Shown here one piece after another: positions 6,534 to 48,024 of a DNA stretch of 50,203 nt. The notes under the pieces are model-generated. The model was not told the origin of the DNA and ran no database searches. It saw only the letters and a list, made by a program, of their open reading frames with translations. This DNA is from Burkholderiaceae bacterium (lineage in GTDB: Bacteria > Pseudomonadota > Gammaproteobacteria > Burkholderiales > Burkholderiaceae_C). The DNA lies in contig JACSRS010000097.1 of assembly GCA_014879655.1 (NCBI GenBank), positions 1 to 50,203 on the forward strand. Reading direction: 5' to 3'. The position numbers and the translations under genes were made by a program. Numbering within the stretch: the first letter of the stretch is position 1; the number at the start of each line of letters is the position of its first letter.

Positions 6534-6595
6534 AGAAAAACCGCAAAAACAGGATCAATCCAGCGTCAGATGGTGCATAAAAGCTATGGAAAACA
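6534..6595 (+). repeat. Dispersed repeat family A, intergenic copy upstream of smc
   Basis: Contains ATCCAGCGTCAGATGG followed by GCATAAAAGCTATGG, the family A core, with an A-rich stretch on its left. It lies in the 250-base gap between the divergent dapC and smc genes. The rest of that gap has a short GC hairpin (about 6606-6622) and a weak -10-like TATCAT near 6637. Confidence 0.7.
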
Positions 6596-14104: not shown

Positions 14105-14168
14105 CGACTTTTTCAAGCCATTTTGGCCATCAGCCAGCGTCAAATCGTGCGTTGTTGCTATTGATTGA
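14105..14168 (+). repeat. Dispersed repeat family A, intergenic copy between def and glnD
   Basis: One of the fullest copies: a T-rich left arm (CTTTTTCAAGCCATTTTGGCC), the core GCCAGCGTCAAATCG, then TGTTGCTATTGATTG. It fills most of the 109-base gap between the convergent def and glnD genes. Confidence 0.75.
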
Positions 14169-14210
14169 TGACTGAGCGGAGACTGCACGCAGGCTCGGGC
14201 GTGCGGCAGC

Positions 14211-16890: not shown

Positions 16891-17694
16891 TCATGCCTTG
16901 ACGAACGCGGGCGGCGGCGGCGTGCCGGCCGACACGGTCAGCACTTCGTAGCCGGTCTCGGTGACCAGGATGGTGTGCTCCCATTGCGCCGACAGCGAAT
17001 GGTCCTTGGTGACGATGGTCCAGCCGTCGCCCAGCTCCTTGATGTCACGCCGGCCGGCGTTGATCATCGGCTCGATCGTGAAGGTCATGCCGGGCCTGAG
17101 CTCGTCCAGCGTGCCCGGCCGGCCGTAGTGCAGCACCTGCGGTTCTTCATGGAAGACGCGGCCGATGCCATGGCCGCAGAACTCGCGGACCACCGAAAAG
17201 CCGTGGCCTTCGGCGAATTTCTGGATCGCTGCGCCAATGTCGCCCAGATGGGCGCCGGGGCGCACCTGCACGATGCCGTGCCACATTGCGTCATAGGTGA
17301 GGGCGGCCAGGCGTTTGGCCGCAATCGAGGCTTCGCCGACCAGGAACATGCGGCTGGTGTCACCGTGCCAGCCGTCCTTGATGACGGTGACGTCGATGTT
17401 CAGGCTGTCGCCCTTCTTCAGCGGCTTGTCGTTCGGGATGCCGTGGCACACCTGATGGTTCAGCGACGTGCAGATCGACTTGGGGTAGGGCACATAGCCC
17501 GCCGGCTGGTAGTTCAGTGGCGCCGGAATCGCGCCCTGGACCTGCGTGATGTAGTCGTGCGCCAGCTTGTCCAGCTGGTTGGTCGTCACGCCGGGTTTGA
17601 CGTGAGGGGTGAGGTAGTCGAGCACCTCGGAGGCCAGCCGGCCGGCCACGCGCATGCCGGCAATGCCGTCCGCGTCTTTGTAAGTGATTGTCAT
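16891..17694 (-). CDS. map: Type I methionine aminopeptidase
   Basis: 267 residues, like E. coli Map (264). Metal ligands are in [31 protein letters not shown] and the final WEHTILV glutamate. It removes the initiator methionine after deformylation. In many bacteria map is beside rpsB; here it is followed by glnD and diverges from purL. The ATG lies 8 bases after a GATAAT with an extended TG, identical for 19 bases with the dapC start region, so translation may begin on a leaderless mRNA. Confidence 0.97.
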
Positions 17695-17860: not shown

Positions 17861-20800
17861 GTGAACCTGCACATCACTGCTTTTGAGGGCGGCAACGCAC
17901 TCAGCGCCTTCCGTGTCCGCCAGCTGCTCCCCCGCCTGACGGCCATCCACGACCGCATCACCGGCCTTTCGGCGCGGCATGTGCATCTGGTGGCGACCGA
18001 AGCCGCGCCGACTGCGGCCGAACGGGAGCAATTTGCCGCGCTGCTGCAGTACGGCGAGCCATACGACAACCTGGCCGGGCTGGACGCCCCGCTGGTGGTG
18101 GTCTCGCCGCGGCTGGGCACGGTGTCACCCTGGGCGTCAAAGGCGACCGACATCGCCCACAACTGCGGCCTGGCCCTGCGGCGCATCGAGCGCATCACCG
18201 AATACCGCATCGCGCTGCAGCCGCGGCTGTTCGGCACCGTCGAGCTGACGCCGGCGCAATGGCAGGCGGTGGCCGATCTGCTGCACGACCGCATGACCGA
18301 AAGCGCGCTGGCGGCGCGCGAGCAGGCGCTGGGCCTGTTTCGCGAACTGCAGCCGGCGCCGATGGAGCATGTCGACGTGCTGGCGGGCGGCCGCGCCGAG
18401 CTGGAGGTGGCCAACACCCGCTTCGGGCTGGCGCTGGCCGACGACGAGATCGACTATCTGGTGAACGCGTTCACCGGCCTGGGCCGCAACCCGACCGACG
18501 TCGAGCTGATGATGTTTGCGCAGGCCAACAGTGAACATTGCCGCCACAAGATCTTCAACGCCAGCTTCACCATCGACGGGCAGCCGCAGGGCGATTCGCT
18601 GTTTGCGATGATCCGCAACACGCACAAACTGGCGCCGCAGCACACGGTGGTGGCCTACAGCGACAACGCCTCGGTGATGGAAGGTGGCGAAATCCAGCAC
18701 TTTTCAGCCTTTTTTGGGGAAACCCAGCACCAGGGGGTGCTTTCCAGCTATCAAAAACAAAGCATCCGCAGCCATGTGCTGATGAAGGTGGAAACGCACA
18801 ACCACCCCACGGCGATCTCTCCGTACCCCGGTGCATCGACCGGGGCGGGCGGCGAGATCCGCGACGAAGGCGCCACCGGCCGGGGCTCGCGCCCCAAGGC
18901 GGGTCTGACCGGTTTCACGGTGTCGCGCCTGTGGGGCGGCCTGTCGGACCAGCCGGGCGGCAAGCCCGACCACATTGCCAGCCCGCTGCAGATCATGACC
19001 GAAGGGCCGCTGGGCGGCGCCGCCTTCAACAACGAATTCGGCCGGCCCAACCTGCTGGGCTATTTCCGTGAATACGAGCAGACCGTGGGCGGCGTGCAGC
19101 GCGGCTATCACAAGCCGATCATGATTGCCGGCGGTCTGGGCAGCATCGACGCGCGGCAGACGCGCAAGATCGAGTTTCCCGCCGGCTCGCTGCTGATCCA
19201 GCTCGGCGGCCCGGGCATGCGCATCGGCATGGGCGGCAGCGCCGCCAGTTCGATGGCCACCGGCGCCAATGCGTCGCACCTGGACTTCGACTCGGTGCAG
19301 CGCGGCAATCCCGAGATCCAGCGCCGCGCGCAGGAGGTCATCAACCACTGCCAGGCGCAGGGCGACGCCAACCCGATCCTGGCCATTCACGACGTGGGCG
19401 CCGGTGGCCTGTCCAATGCCTTCCCCGAGCTGACCAACGACGCCGGCCGCGGCGCGCGCTTCGATCTGCGTGCCGTGCCGCTCGAAGAATCGGGCCTGGC
19501 GCCCAAGGAGATCTGGTGCAACGAGAGCCAGGAGCGCTATGTGCTGGCCATCGCGCCCGACTCGCTGCCGCTGTTCCAGGCCTTCTGCGAGCGCGAGCGC
19601 TGCCCGTTTGCAGTGGTCGGCGTGGCCACCGAAGCGCGCGAACTGGTGCTGGCAGATGGGGACGAGCAAGCCGCCGCGCGCCGCGCCGGGCCGCCCCAAG
19701 CAAGCGCAGCCCCCTCGGGGGGCAGCGAACCACACGAAGTGGGGAGCGTCGGGGCTCCGGTGAGCATGCCGATGGACGTGCTGCTGGGCAAGCCGCCCAA
19801 GATGCACCGCAACGTGCAAACGGTGCGGCGCGACTTTGTGCCGATGGACCTGACCGGTGTGAGCCTGCAGCAGGCCGTGATCGACGTGCTGAGCCACCCC
19901 ACGGTGGCGTCCAAACGCTTTCTGATCACCATCGGTGACCGCAGCGTCGGCGGCCTGACGCACCGCGACCAGATGGTCGGTCCCTGGCAGGTGCCGGTGG
20001 CCGATTGCGCGGTGACGCTGGCGGATTACAGCGGCTTTGCCGGCGAGGCGATGAGCCTGGGCGAGCGCACGCCGCTGGCCGCCATCGATGCCGCCGCTTC
20101 GGGCCGCATGGCGGTGGCCGAGGCCATCACCAACCTGCTGGCCGCACCGATCGAACTGCCGCGCGTCAAGCTGTCGGCCAACTGGATGGCCGCCTGTGGC
20201 GAGCCCGGTGAAGACGCTGCGCTGTACCAGACGGTGAAGGCGGTGGGCATGGAGCTGTGCCCGGCGCTGGGCATCTCGATTCCCGTGGGCAAGGATTCGC
20301 TGTCCATGCGCACCCAGTGGCCCGACCCGCAGAACGCCGCGCAGCAGCGCAAGGTGACCTCGCCGGTCAGCCTGATCGTCACTGCCTTTGCCACGCTGGC
20401 CGACGTTCGCGGCACGTTGACGCCGCAGCTGGACGTGCTCACCCCCGACACCACGCTGGTGCTGGTCGATCTGGGTCGGGGCCGCAACCGCATGGGCGGC
20501 TCCATCCTGGGGCAAGTGCTCGACCAGCCGGGTGACGAGGTTCCCGACCTGGACGATCCGCAGGACCTGGTCAACCTGGTGAATGCGGTGAATGCGCTGC
20601 GCAGCGCCGGTCAGCTGCTCGCCTATCACGACCGCAGCGATGGCGGGCTCTTGGCTGCGGCGGCCGAGATGGCCTTTGCCGGCCATGTGGGGGTGACCCT
20701 GAATGTGGACCTCCTGGTCACCGAAGGCGATGGCATCAGCGACAGCCGGGCCGACTTCGGCGACGCCAAGAACTGGGCCGGGCAGGTGGGCGCGCGCCGC

Positions 20801-21961
20801 GACGAGCTGACGCTCAAGGCGCTGTTTGCCGAAGAACTTGGGGTGCTGCTGCAGGTGCGAACGGCCGAGCGCGACGCGGTGATGCAGACGCTGCGCGCGC
20901 ACGGGCTGTCCCGGCACAGCCATTTCGTCGGCAAGACACGGCCGCCGTCGTCGGCACTGCCGCACGGCGTGGGCCAACTGTCGGTCTGGCGCGACGCCAA
21001 AGAGGTGTTCAGCGCGCCGCTGGCCGACCTGCACCAGGTCTGGGACAGCGTGAGCTGGCGCATCTGCCAGCAGCGCGACAACCCGGCCTGCGCCGACGCC
21101 GAGCACGCGGCGGCCGGCGCGCCGGCCGACCCGGGCCTGCATCTGAACCTGAACTTCGATCCGGCGCAGGACGTTGCTGCGCCTTACCTGAACCTGTCGC
21201 GCCCCCGCGTGGCCATCCTGCGCGAGCAGGGCGTGAATTCGCACATCGAGATGGCCTATGCGTTCACCGAGGCCGGTTTCGACGCGGTGGACGTGCACAT
21301 GACCGACCTGCAAAGCGGGCGCGCCCGGCTGCAGGACTTCAAGGGCCTGGTGGCCTGCGGTGGCTTCAGCTACGGTGACACGCTGGGCGCGGGCATCGGC
21401 TGGGCACGCTCCATCACCTTCAACCCGGCGCTGTCGGGCCAGTTCCGTGATTTCTTTGGCCGCGCCGATACCTTTGGCCTGGGCGTGTGCAACGGCTGCC
21501 AGATGTTTGCCGAACTGGCCGACATCATCCCCGGCGCGCAGCACTGGCCGCGCTTCACCACCAACCAGAGCGAGCGCTTCGAGGCGCGCCTGTCACTGGT
21601 GGAAGTGCTGGAGTCGCCCAGCCTGTTCCTGCAGGGCATGGCCGGCAGCCGCCTGCCGATTGCGGTGGCCCATGGCGAGGGCTTTGCCAACTTCCAGCAT
21701 CGCGGCGACGCGGCGCGGGCCATTGCTGCGATGCGCTACGTGGACAACGCCGGCGCCGCGACCGAAACCTACCCGTTCAATCCCAACGGCAGCCCCGATG
21801 GCCTGACCGGCGTGACCACTGCCGACGGGCGCTTCACCGCGATGATGCCGCACCCTGAGCGGGTCTTCCGCAACATCCAGATGAGCTGGACGTCGGGCAA
21901 CCCGGCCGACTTCAGCCCCTGGATGCGCATCTGGCGCAATGCGCGCAAGTGGGTGGGTTGA
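17861..21961 (+). CDS. purL: Phosphoribosylformylglycinamidine synthase PurL (large form)
   Basis: 1366 residues from the GTG giving (M)[17 protein letters not shown], which aligns with the family N-terminus; the open frame extends 59 codons further without matching homologues. Order: PurS-like N-terminus, linker, two FGAM-synthase halves (NSEHCRHK and [13 protein letters not shown] are the ATP/substrate blocks), then a C-terminal glutaminase (nucleophile in GVCNGCQMF, later HGEGFANF). It makes FGAM in de novo purine synthesis. It is about 70 residues longer than E. coli PurL. At least two extra segments coincide with dispersed repeats: residues about 281-300 (family A-like) and about 600-632 (family B). 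All catalytic blocks are intact. Confidence 0.97.
18701..18761 (+). repeat. Family A-like dispersed repeat inside purL
   Basis: TTTTCAGCCTTTTTTGG, then CCCAGCACCAGG, GGTGCTTTCCAGCTATCAAAAA. The T-rich arm, CCAGC and GCTATcaaaa landmarks match family A in the same order, though the core is more diverged (a sister variant). AT-rich against a GC-rich gene. In frame; encodes about [20 protein letters not shown] just before the conserved KVETHNHP block, about seven residues longer than E. coli here. Confidence 0.6.
19659..19756 (+). repeat. Dispersed GC-rich repeat family B inside purL
   Basis: Consists of GACGAGCAAGCCGCCGCG, GGGCCGCCCCAAGCAAGCG, a small CCCCCTCGGGGGG palindrome, and CACGAAGTGGGGAGCGTCGGGGCT. 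I recall near-identical elements scattered through Comamonadaceae genomes. In frame, it encodes an Ala/Gly/Ser/Pro-rich loop between LVLADG and the conserved [12 protein letters not shown], about 25 residues longer than in E. coli. Confidence 0.7.
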
Positions 21962-24388: not shown

Positions 24389-24759
24389 TCAGGATCCTTG
24401 GGTTGGTCAGGGAGGGGTGGACCCCACTGTGACGGCAGACCCGGCGGGCTGGCTAGGGGGTTTTCCGCAAGGCCCGGCCTGTCAGGTTCGAAAGGCAATG
24501 GCGCCCCGTGCCGTCTGGCAGGGGTGGCCGTTCGTTCCCGGCCGCGGGGCAGGGCTGCCCAACCGGGGACCCCCGGGCCGCTTTTGCATCAATATTGAAT
24601 AAAATATGGGGCAATCCAGCGTCAAATGGACATTGCTTGCTATCAATATGAAATTGACCTTTCATCGGCTTTGACCGTTGATGCCCGCCGCCAGGGGCGG
24701 GCCCGCAGTCCCAGTCAAAATCAACGGTTTCCCGAACCCCACTTCCCGAGACTCCGCTC
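24389..24759. other. 371-base divergent intergenic region
   Basis: Lies between the acyl-CoA synthetase (minus) and the DUF808 gene (plus). It holds a family A repeat (24588-24654) in the only markedly AT-rich stretch, and a CAAAAT box near 24716 that may be the -10 of the DUF808 gene. I see no convincing small gene or structured RNA in the rest. Confidence 0.5.
24588..24654 (+). repeat. Dispersed repeat family A, intergenic copy
   Basis: Core AATCCAGCGTCAAATGG followed by ACATTGCTTGCTATCAATATG, with an AT-rich left flank (TTGAATAAAATATGGGG). The left flank could also work as a promoter: TTGCAT and TAAAAT. Confidence 0.75.
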
Positions 24760-47943: not shown

Positions 47944-48008
47944 TTTTTCATGCTTTTTTGGCATCAACCCAGCGTCAAATGGTGATTTTTCGCTATTTCT
48001 TTTGAACT
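47944..48008 (+). repeat. Dispersed repeat family A, intergenic copy
   Basis: Complete copy: TTTTTCATGCTTTTTTGGC, ATCAACCCAGCGTCAAATGG, TGATTTTTCGCTATTTC. It fills the gap between the thioesterase and the reductase genes; it may separate transcripts. Confidence 0.75.
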
Positions 48009-48024
48009 GAACAAGGAGTCTTTC

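Follow-up and report, generated by a model that had tools for sequence, protein, structure and literature searches.

Rickettsia provides the best-known cases of repeats that lie in frame within conserved enzymes. A 50,203-nucleotide stretch of DNA from a Burkholderiaceae bacterium (the window) raises the question of whether the conserved enzymes of another family carry such repeats, and of how these come to lie in frame. A sequence-only reading of the window had proposed that 19659–19756, within purL, is one copy of a dispersed GC-rich repeat, here called B. The family is rich in species, and one of its genera offers dozens of sequenced congeners; together with empty sites this makes gain, loss, frame choice and tolerance measurable.

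The GTG at 17861 was picked by us as the start of purL, giving 1366 codons; the longest frame opens at 17684. A 580-amino acid part of the product matched solved PurL chains (E 1.8e-205). Because a single PurL match was found in the window's genome (G000), the insert-bearing enzyme presumably works. Between the motifs VVGVATEA and LGKPPKM the window PurL has 64 residues. The commonest length among 80 relatives is 36 (17/80), and 50/80 have 36–41. Relative to the commonest loop the net gain is 84 nt (28 codons), with edges ambiguous by one codon. The right end of the span first proposed fits, while its left end lies about 11–14 nt too far out (Table 1). As had been proposed, the segment encodes an Ala/Gly/Ser/Pro-rich loop between LVLADG (LVLADGDEQ) and PMDVLLGK, and one open frame spans it. 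Salmonella PurL (1T3T) has a solved structure, and alignment to its sequence sets 31 window residues against four there (600–603) and shows that the insert is located in a loop. An AlphaFold model of the 580-residue part (mean pLDDT 52) was too poor to show the loop; residues 410–430 scored below 50, like about half of the model. Judging from the frame, the copy appears to be a tolerated insert that would be translated as a 28-residue loop extension.

Table 1. Features of purL and of its copy of repeat B (positions in the window).
Feature	Coordinates	Strand	Basis or remark
purL (phosphoribosylformylglycinamidine synthase)	17861..21961	+	ORF and match to solved PurL chains
Repeat B copy in purL, in frame	19670..19756	+	Genome and family matches, protein alignment to 80 relatives
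P3 outer arm (variable-stem hairpin)	19676..19684	+	Arm pairs changing together between copies
P3 conserved loop GCCGGGCCGCCCCAA	19685..19699	+	Recurs in noncoding and coding copies
P3 inner arm	19700..19707	+	Arm pairs changing together between copies
P2 central palindrome CCCCCTCGGGGGG	19710..19722	+	In frame gives A-P-S-G-G
P1 small hairpin CAC-GAA-GTG	19733..19741	+	CGC-GAA-GCG in some other copies
Element end, GTCGGGGC in window, GTGGGGGC in consensus	19748..19755	+	Faces stop codon in most noncoding copies

A genome-wide search with the segment, in which coding and intergenic copies and their frames were listed, showed that other copies exist. The window's genome, the sole member of its genus in the genome set searched, holds 20 further matches at E ≤ 1 (21 with the segment itself) and 18 at E ≤ 0.001, self included. 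Matches were also found in 123/150 genomes of the window's family (E ≤ 1e-5); judged by PurL, the named group closest to this family is the Comamonadaceae. The scan scored no more than about six candidates in each genome, so copy numbers there are lower bounds. With 40 candidates scored in each, G099 has at least 40 matches and G042 at least 81. G099 probably belongs to Polaromonas, since Polaromonas sp. YR568 (L046) has an identical PurL loop. A 19-nt piece of B, searched with 3 mismatches allowed, had a single match in the window (expected 0.01). This search and the copies in its own and family genomes rule out a chance GC-rich loop. The internal palindrome CCCCCTCGGGGGG is present as first described; alone, with 3 mismatches allowed, it is not significant in the GC-rich window (present in 32/100 shuffles). 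B matched 6/72,556 plasmid records (E ≤ 1e-6), three of them from Burkholderia or Paraburkholderia, and none of 50,697 phage records. An exact-pattern search gave 15 stretches in viral contigs. The copy set comprises 175 B copies from 97 regions and the window. 99 are intergenic, 28 lie at a gene edge and 48 are internal, in keeping with the usually intergenic repeat of many Comamonadaceae genomes that the element had been said to resemble.

B is about 80 nt long with 77% GC. 112/113 full copies measure 78–84 nt, and 91/113 measure 79–80 nt. Two or more units are present in 33/117 arrays, with a commonest period of 84 (16/40 steps). Three hairpins recur among the copies. The first, CAC-TTC-GTG, changes to CGC-TTC-GCG between copies, and the central hairpin is CCCCCCGAGGGGG. 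The third combines an invariant loop, TTGGGGCGGCCCGGC, with arms that vary from copy to copy yet stay complementary, for example AATTTTCC with GGAAAATT, CAGCCGGC with GCCGGCTG and GCCCCGCC with GGCGGGGC. The structure came out poorly when RNAalifold was run on 93 copies aligned with MAFFT, and arm pairing was then scored directly in the copies fitting a loop pattern (81 noncoding and 23 coding). Over distinct arm pairs, the mean arm score of noncoding copies was 5.72 vs 4.24 for swapped arms, with 5.25 the highest of 200 shuffles. Coding copies scored 6.45 vs 3.76, the highest shuffle reaching 4.6. Since the arms vary yet stay complementary, selection acts or has acted on the structure, whether in RNA or in single-stranded DNA. 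Folded as single-stranded DNA, the window copy did not exceed its shuffles in stability (z 0.10). A stop-free design in all six frames was rejected, being found in 44% of 75 noncoding copies vs 37% of shuffles, hardly above composition. Inspected by eye for MITE features, the ends GCCGC... and ...GTGGGGGC showed no long inverted repeat. A longer form, with 77 nt extra within the central palindrome, occurs at L161 2305–2456 and L169 1695–1846.

We consider it likely that B is a non-autonomous, hairpin-forming chromosomal repeat spread by insertion, and that the PurL copy is a tolerated, translated and probably neutral insert. Matched by description rather than by sequence, B is probably the Beta-proteobacterial repeat element (BRE) of Bordetella and Comamonadaceae. 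Part of the account of Hot et al. (2011; PMC3110155) describes the BRE as a GC-rich chromosomal element of about 90 bp (75–91 bp in Bordetella), with tandem copies separated by few or no nucleotides, usually intergenic and sometimes wholly within coding sequence. Its hosts are given there as Bordetella, Comamonadaceae and Azoarcus, with Polaromonas (29 copies in JS666), Delftia, Acidovorax and Rhodoferax. B resembles the BRE in length, GC content and tandem arrays. Its presence in a family related to the Comamonadaceae, in few plasmid records and in no phage record may fit the BRE host range. In contrast, section 14 of that paper mentions neither stop-codon orientation, reading frame, empty coding sites nor a PurL hot spot. 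Among the papers listed in literature searches for B or its behaviour, none but that on the BRE gave a description, and the parts of PMC2755013 and PMC2817692 consulted held nothing on B. Neither the element nor the phenomenon is new in kind; the literature examined held nothing on the rules of orientation and frame, on empty sites in coding sequence or on a PurL landing site shared by different repeats.

Copies between genes occupy a particular slot. On the strand beginning GCCCCCACGC, 49/72 arrays start at most 10 nt after a stop codon of the same strand, vs 11.0 expected under random place and orientation within the same gaps. The opposite placement was found in 8/72. These 72 are the arrays not wholly inside genes; those with no intact end, lacking either neighbour or wholly internal were excluded. 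39 of the 49 stop-adjacent arrays precede a gene of the same direction. The flank preceding noncoding copies leans to AATATG, and a start-codon reading of this ATG-like flank was given up, since copies vary in length near P1 and this variation shifts the frame. At one intergenic site B stands directly after TGA in G099, G188 and G166; in the empty congeners (8/10 aligned, 12 searched) the neighbouring genes appear to overlap by ATGA. Occupation of the stop-codon slot in one orientation suggests a role at the mRNA 3′ end or an insertion route coupled to the slot, and can be used to study directly how repeats of this sort insert or what they do.

GTAG- and CGTC-tagged REPs likewise lie near gene 3′ ends, and part of Di Nocera et al. 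(2013; PMC3733652) reports some within genes of known proteins and, in one case, different REPs at about the same recB site. Were B a REP moved by a Y1 transposase of the RAYT type, it should be palindromic, have many copies mostly at gene 3′ ends and sometimes be intragenic, all of which holds for B, and Y1_Tnp matches were found in 19/22 genomes tested. None of the 22 Y1_Tnp loci, however, had a B copy within 1.5 kb on each side, and a RAYT partner in cis was rejected on these loci; one may act in trans. GTAG and CGTC tags stood near the ends of at most 5/113 full copies for any one tag, and B has three hairpins rather than one. Mobilisation of B as a REP is, in our judgement, improbable. 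The main text of PMC3733652 nowhere uses the names Comamonadaceae, Acidovorax, Delftia or Burkholderia. A known RNA family was ruled out by an Rfam scan of 10 loci holding B, in which nothing but a tRNA matched at E ≤ 1.

Within genes, insertion in frame is recurrent. 25 of the 48 internal copies have coding sequence on both sides, and these represent 19 host-gene families. Coding sequence was recognised with our own codon model, and the 23/48 internal copies with a flank coding score ≤ 4 were left out, including an AcrB array of G088 and a TrpE array of G042, whose flanks are other B copies. The coding share was 8/41 copies in G099, 5/19 in the window's genome, 2/89 in G042 and 10/26 in the other genomes, sampled by best match. 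22/25 coding copies are oriented opposite to the stop-codon copies, and 19 of these 22 are read in the APSGGS frame or a near variant. The 3/25 in the stop-codon orientation all share one reverse frame (LPPEGA or LPPGGA), and 3/25 are read in other frames. Counted by host-gene family, grouped by hand, 14/19 use the APSGGS frame (P 6e-8 vs 1/6). All these counts depend on a gene caller written by us and a simple 1/6 null.

Pfam identified the hosts as sulfate permease, alpha/beta hydrolases, fatty-acid hydroxylase, pyruvate dehydrogenase, TrpE, FdhD, PEP carboxylase, response regulator, acyl-CoA dehydrogenase, Mur ligase, CoA-transferase III, AMP-binding enzymes, RecQ, a CobB/CobQ-type amidotransferase, AMP nucleosidase and an AAA ATPase that we took for RadA. 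Across 20 host proteins, a domain spans the insert in 6 and resumes beyond it in 6; a domain starts or stops at the insert in 3, the insert lies between or outside domains in 4, and 1 was unclear. The sequence-only reading had suggested that insertion into protein loops is general behaviour. Its in-frame part holds across the 19 families; the loop location comes from PurL, and for the other hosts we infer it.

Tandem periods were divisible by three in 8/10 steps of coding-classed arrays vs 11/26 of noncoding ones. Both indivisible coding steps belong to TrpE of G042, and one of the four coding-classed arrays, L177, has a doubtful frame. Six in-frame 28-codon copies follow one another in an AcrB-type pump of G088 (L219 1666–5301), and at least four stand in tandem in TrpE of G042 (L169 3777–5726), at the site used singly in G099. 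In FdhD, B lies at the same place in two genera (L146, L194), in the less usual orientation and frame.

An excerpt of PMC10969869 describes Rickettsia palindromic elements (RPEs) as palindromic, about 150 bp long and inserted in frame in many unrelated genes, where they encode a conserved peptide. Compared by description, B shares the in-frame insertion into conserved genes and the recurring peptide. It differs in being GC-rich and about 80 nt long, in its hosts, and in that most sampled copies are not inside genes. These results show that proteins can be lengthened in frame by such repeats outside Rickettsia as well.

Filled and empty sites in congeners delimit the unit. The PEP carboxylase genes of G099 and G181, 89–91% identical, differ by 84 nt, and the site is empty in 26/27 aligned congeners (40 searched). 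The other filled copy, in G188, has two 9-nt indels relative to G099. TrpE has gained 81 nt in G099 and 84 nt in G166 and G182, the site being empty in the other 10/12 genomes searched; the three filled copies have a common junction and hairpin arms that differ. Genomes that could not be bracketed were left out of these alignments. Target-site duplications were looked for by eye at three filled/empty sites and none was seen, flank divergence limiting the view. B is a discrete dispersed unit in two settings, with one preferred genic frame and filled and empty sites that differ by 81–84 nt in two host genes. Among congeners, filled sites are distributed patchily: G181, the nearest to G099 in the genes compared, is without inserts that are found in the more distant G188, G166 or G182. 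Since the filled state does not track nearness to G099, precise loss or allele exchange between species may also contribute to the pattern.

The PurL loop was surveyed in 90 of 144 PurL-bearing genomes; one loop, L249, was unread, leaving 89. Six contain a full B and one (L229) a partial copy, and L227 and L234 are possible remnants. All of these rank within the top 30 hits (L221–L250) obtained with a B-bearing query, a set enriched for long loops. The 60 loops taken from the remainder (L251–L310) are all short, with at most 43 residues. In a PurL tree built without the loop by a quick method, it takes seven changes to account for the seven carriers. Shuffled labels do no worse, and the starred branches force at least four. 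Descent of the PurL copies from a single clade is unsupported, the carriers being scattered over the tree. Repeated insertion at one site could be mimicked by one old insertion in an ancestor, followed by many losses or by the spread of purL alleles through recombination. Changes on the tree cannot tell gain from loss, 6/7 B-bearing loops share the 3′ junction (GA then PV before the MPM motif; L224 has AV), and the common TrpE junction, kept despite differing arms, fits such a history. The number of tree changes and the uniformly short loops of L251–L310 speak against it, as does the entry of unrelated repeats into the same loop of other genomes, and we regard a single old insertion as possible but rather unlikely. 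Among metagenome genomes, L042 and L065 have B in the PurL loop and L026 has a remnant.

The PurL loop of G129 (L228 1963–2019) holds an unrelated 53-nt near-perfect inverted repeat. This repeat has at least 77 matches in G129 (40/109 candidates scored), many being the two strands of one palindrome, which reduces them to about 40 places. In G061 the loop holds another repeat, with 3 matches in that genome including itself. Judged by their peptides, the PurL loops of other relatives perhaps contain further unrelated repeats. The PurL loop is a landing site for several lineages and several repeats. The sequence-only reading had argued for loop insertion from two unrelated repeats in the window purL. 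B is one of these; the other segment, 18690–18785, is weak as a repeat, having besides itself one partial match in its own genome (36 nt, 83%, E 5.6e-4, at E ≤ 0.001), and a SASSYQ-type loop at its site is common to Rhodoferax and Polaromonas PurL. The unrelated repeats of other genomes give stronger support for loop insertion.

These observations also bear on what the insert does. An insert kept for PurL function or regulation, as an adaptive loop or an RNA signal in the purL mRNA, would agree with the arms that still pair in coding copies. Relatives, however, have unrelated repeats or none in the same loop, and B is present in 19 unrelated gene families, leaving a functional insert improbable. 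From sequence comparison the insert is probably neutral for the enzyme. Removal of the segment after transcription, or its skipping in translation, would yield PurL without the loop and would explain insertion into conserved enzymes. Frame-keeping lengths, a preferred frame and the 9-nt indels of PEP carboxylase would then be needless, and we consider such processing highly improbable.

In the mechanism that we favour, B would insert widely through family genomes via some enzyme, and selection would decide which copies remain. Intergenic copies would survive mainly just behind stop codons in one orientation. Genic copies would survive where their length keeps the frame, the peptide is flexible and rich in Gly, Pro, Ser and Ala, and the site is a tolerant loop. 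A more speculative proposal, to which we give little credence, is that B inserts at chosen places, its entry being coupled to mRNA ends or to translation, through an enzyme class so far unrecognised for such repeats; placement one way beside stops, at the same codon boundary of PurL and TrpE loops in separate lineages and in one frame would follow from it. Shared by unrelated repeats, the PurL loop is a natural experiment in insertion tolerance and a warning for annotation. A different dispersed repeat, of the CAGCGTCAAAT...TTGCTAT type, occurs at four places in the window (6556–6587, 14109–14175, 24612–24643 and 47944–48010).
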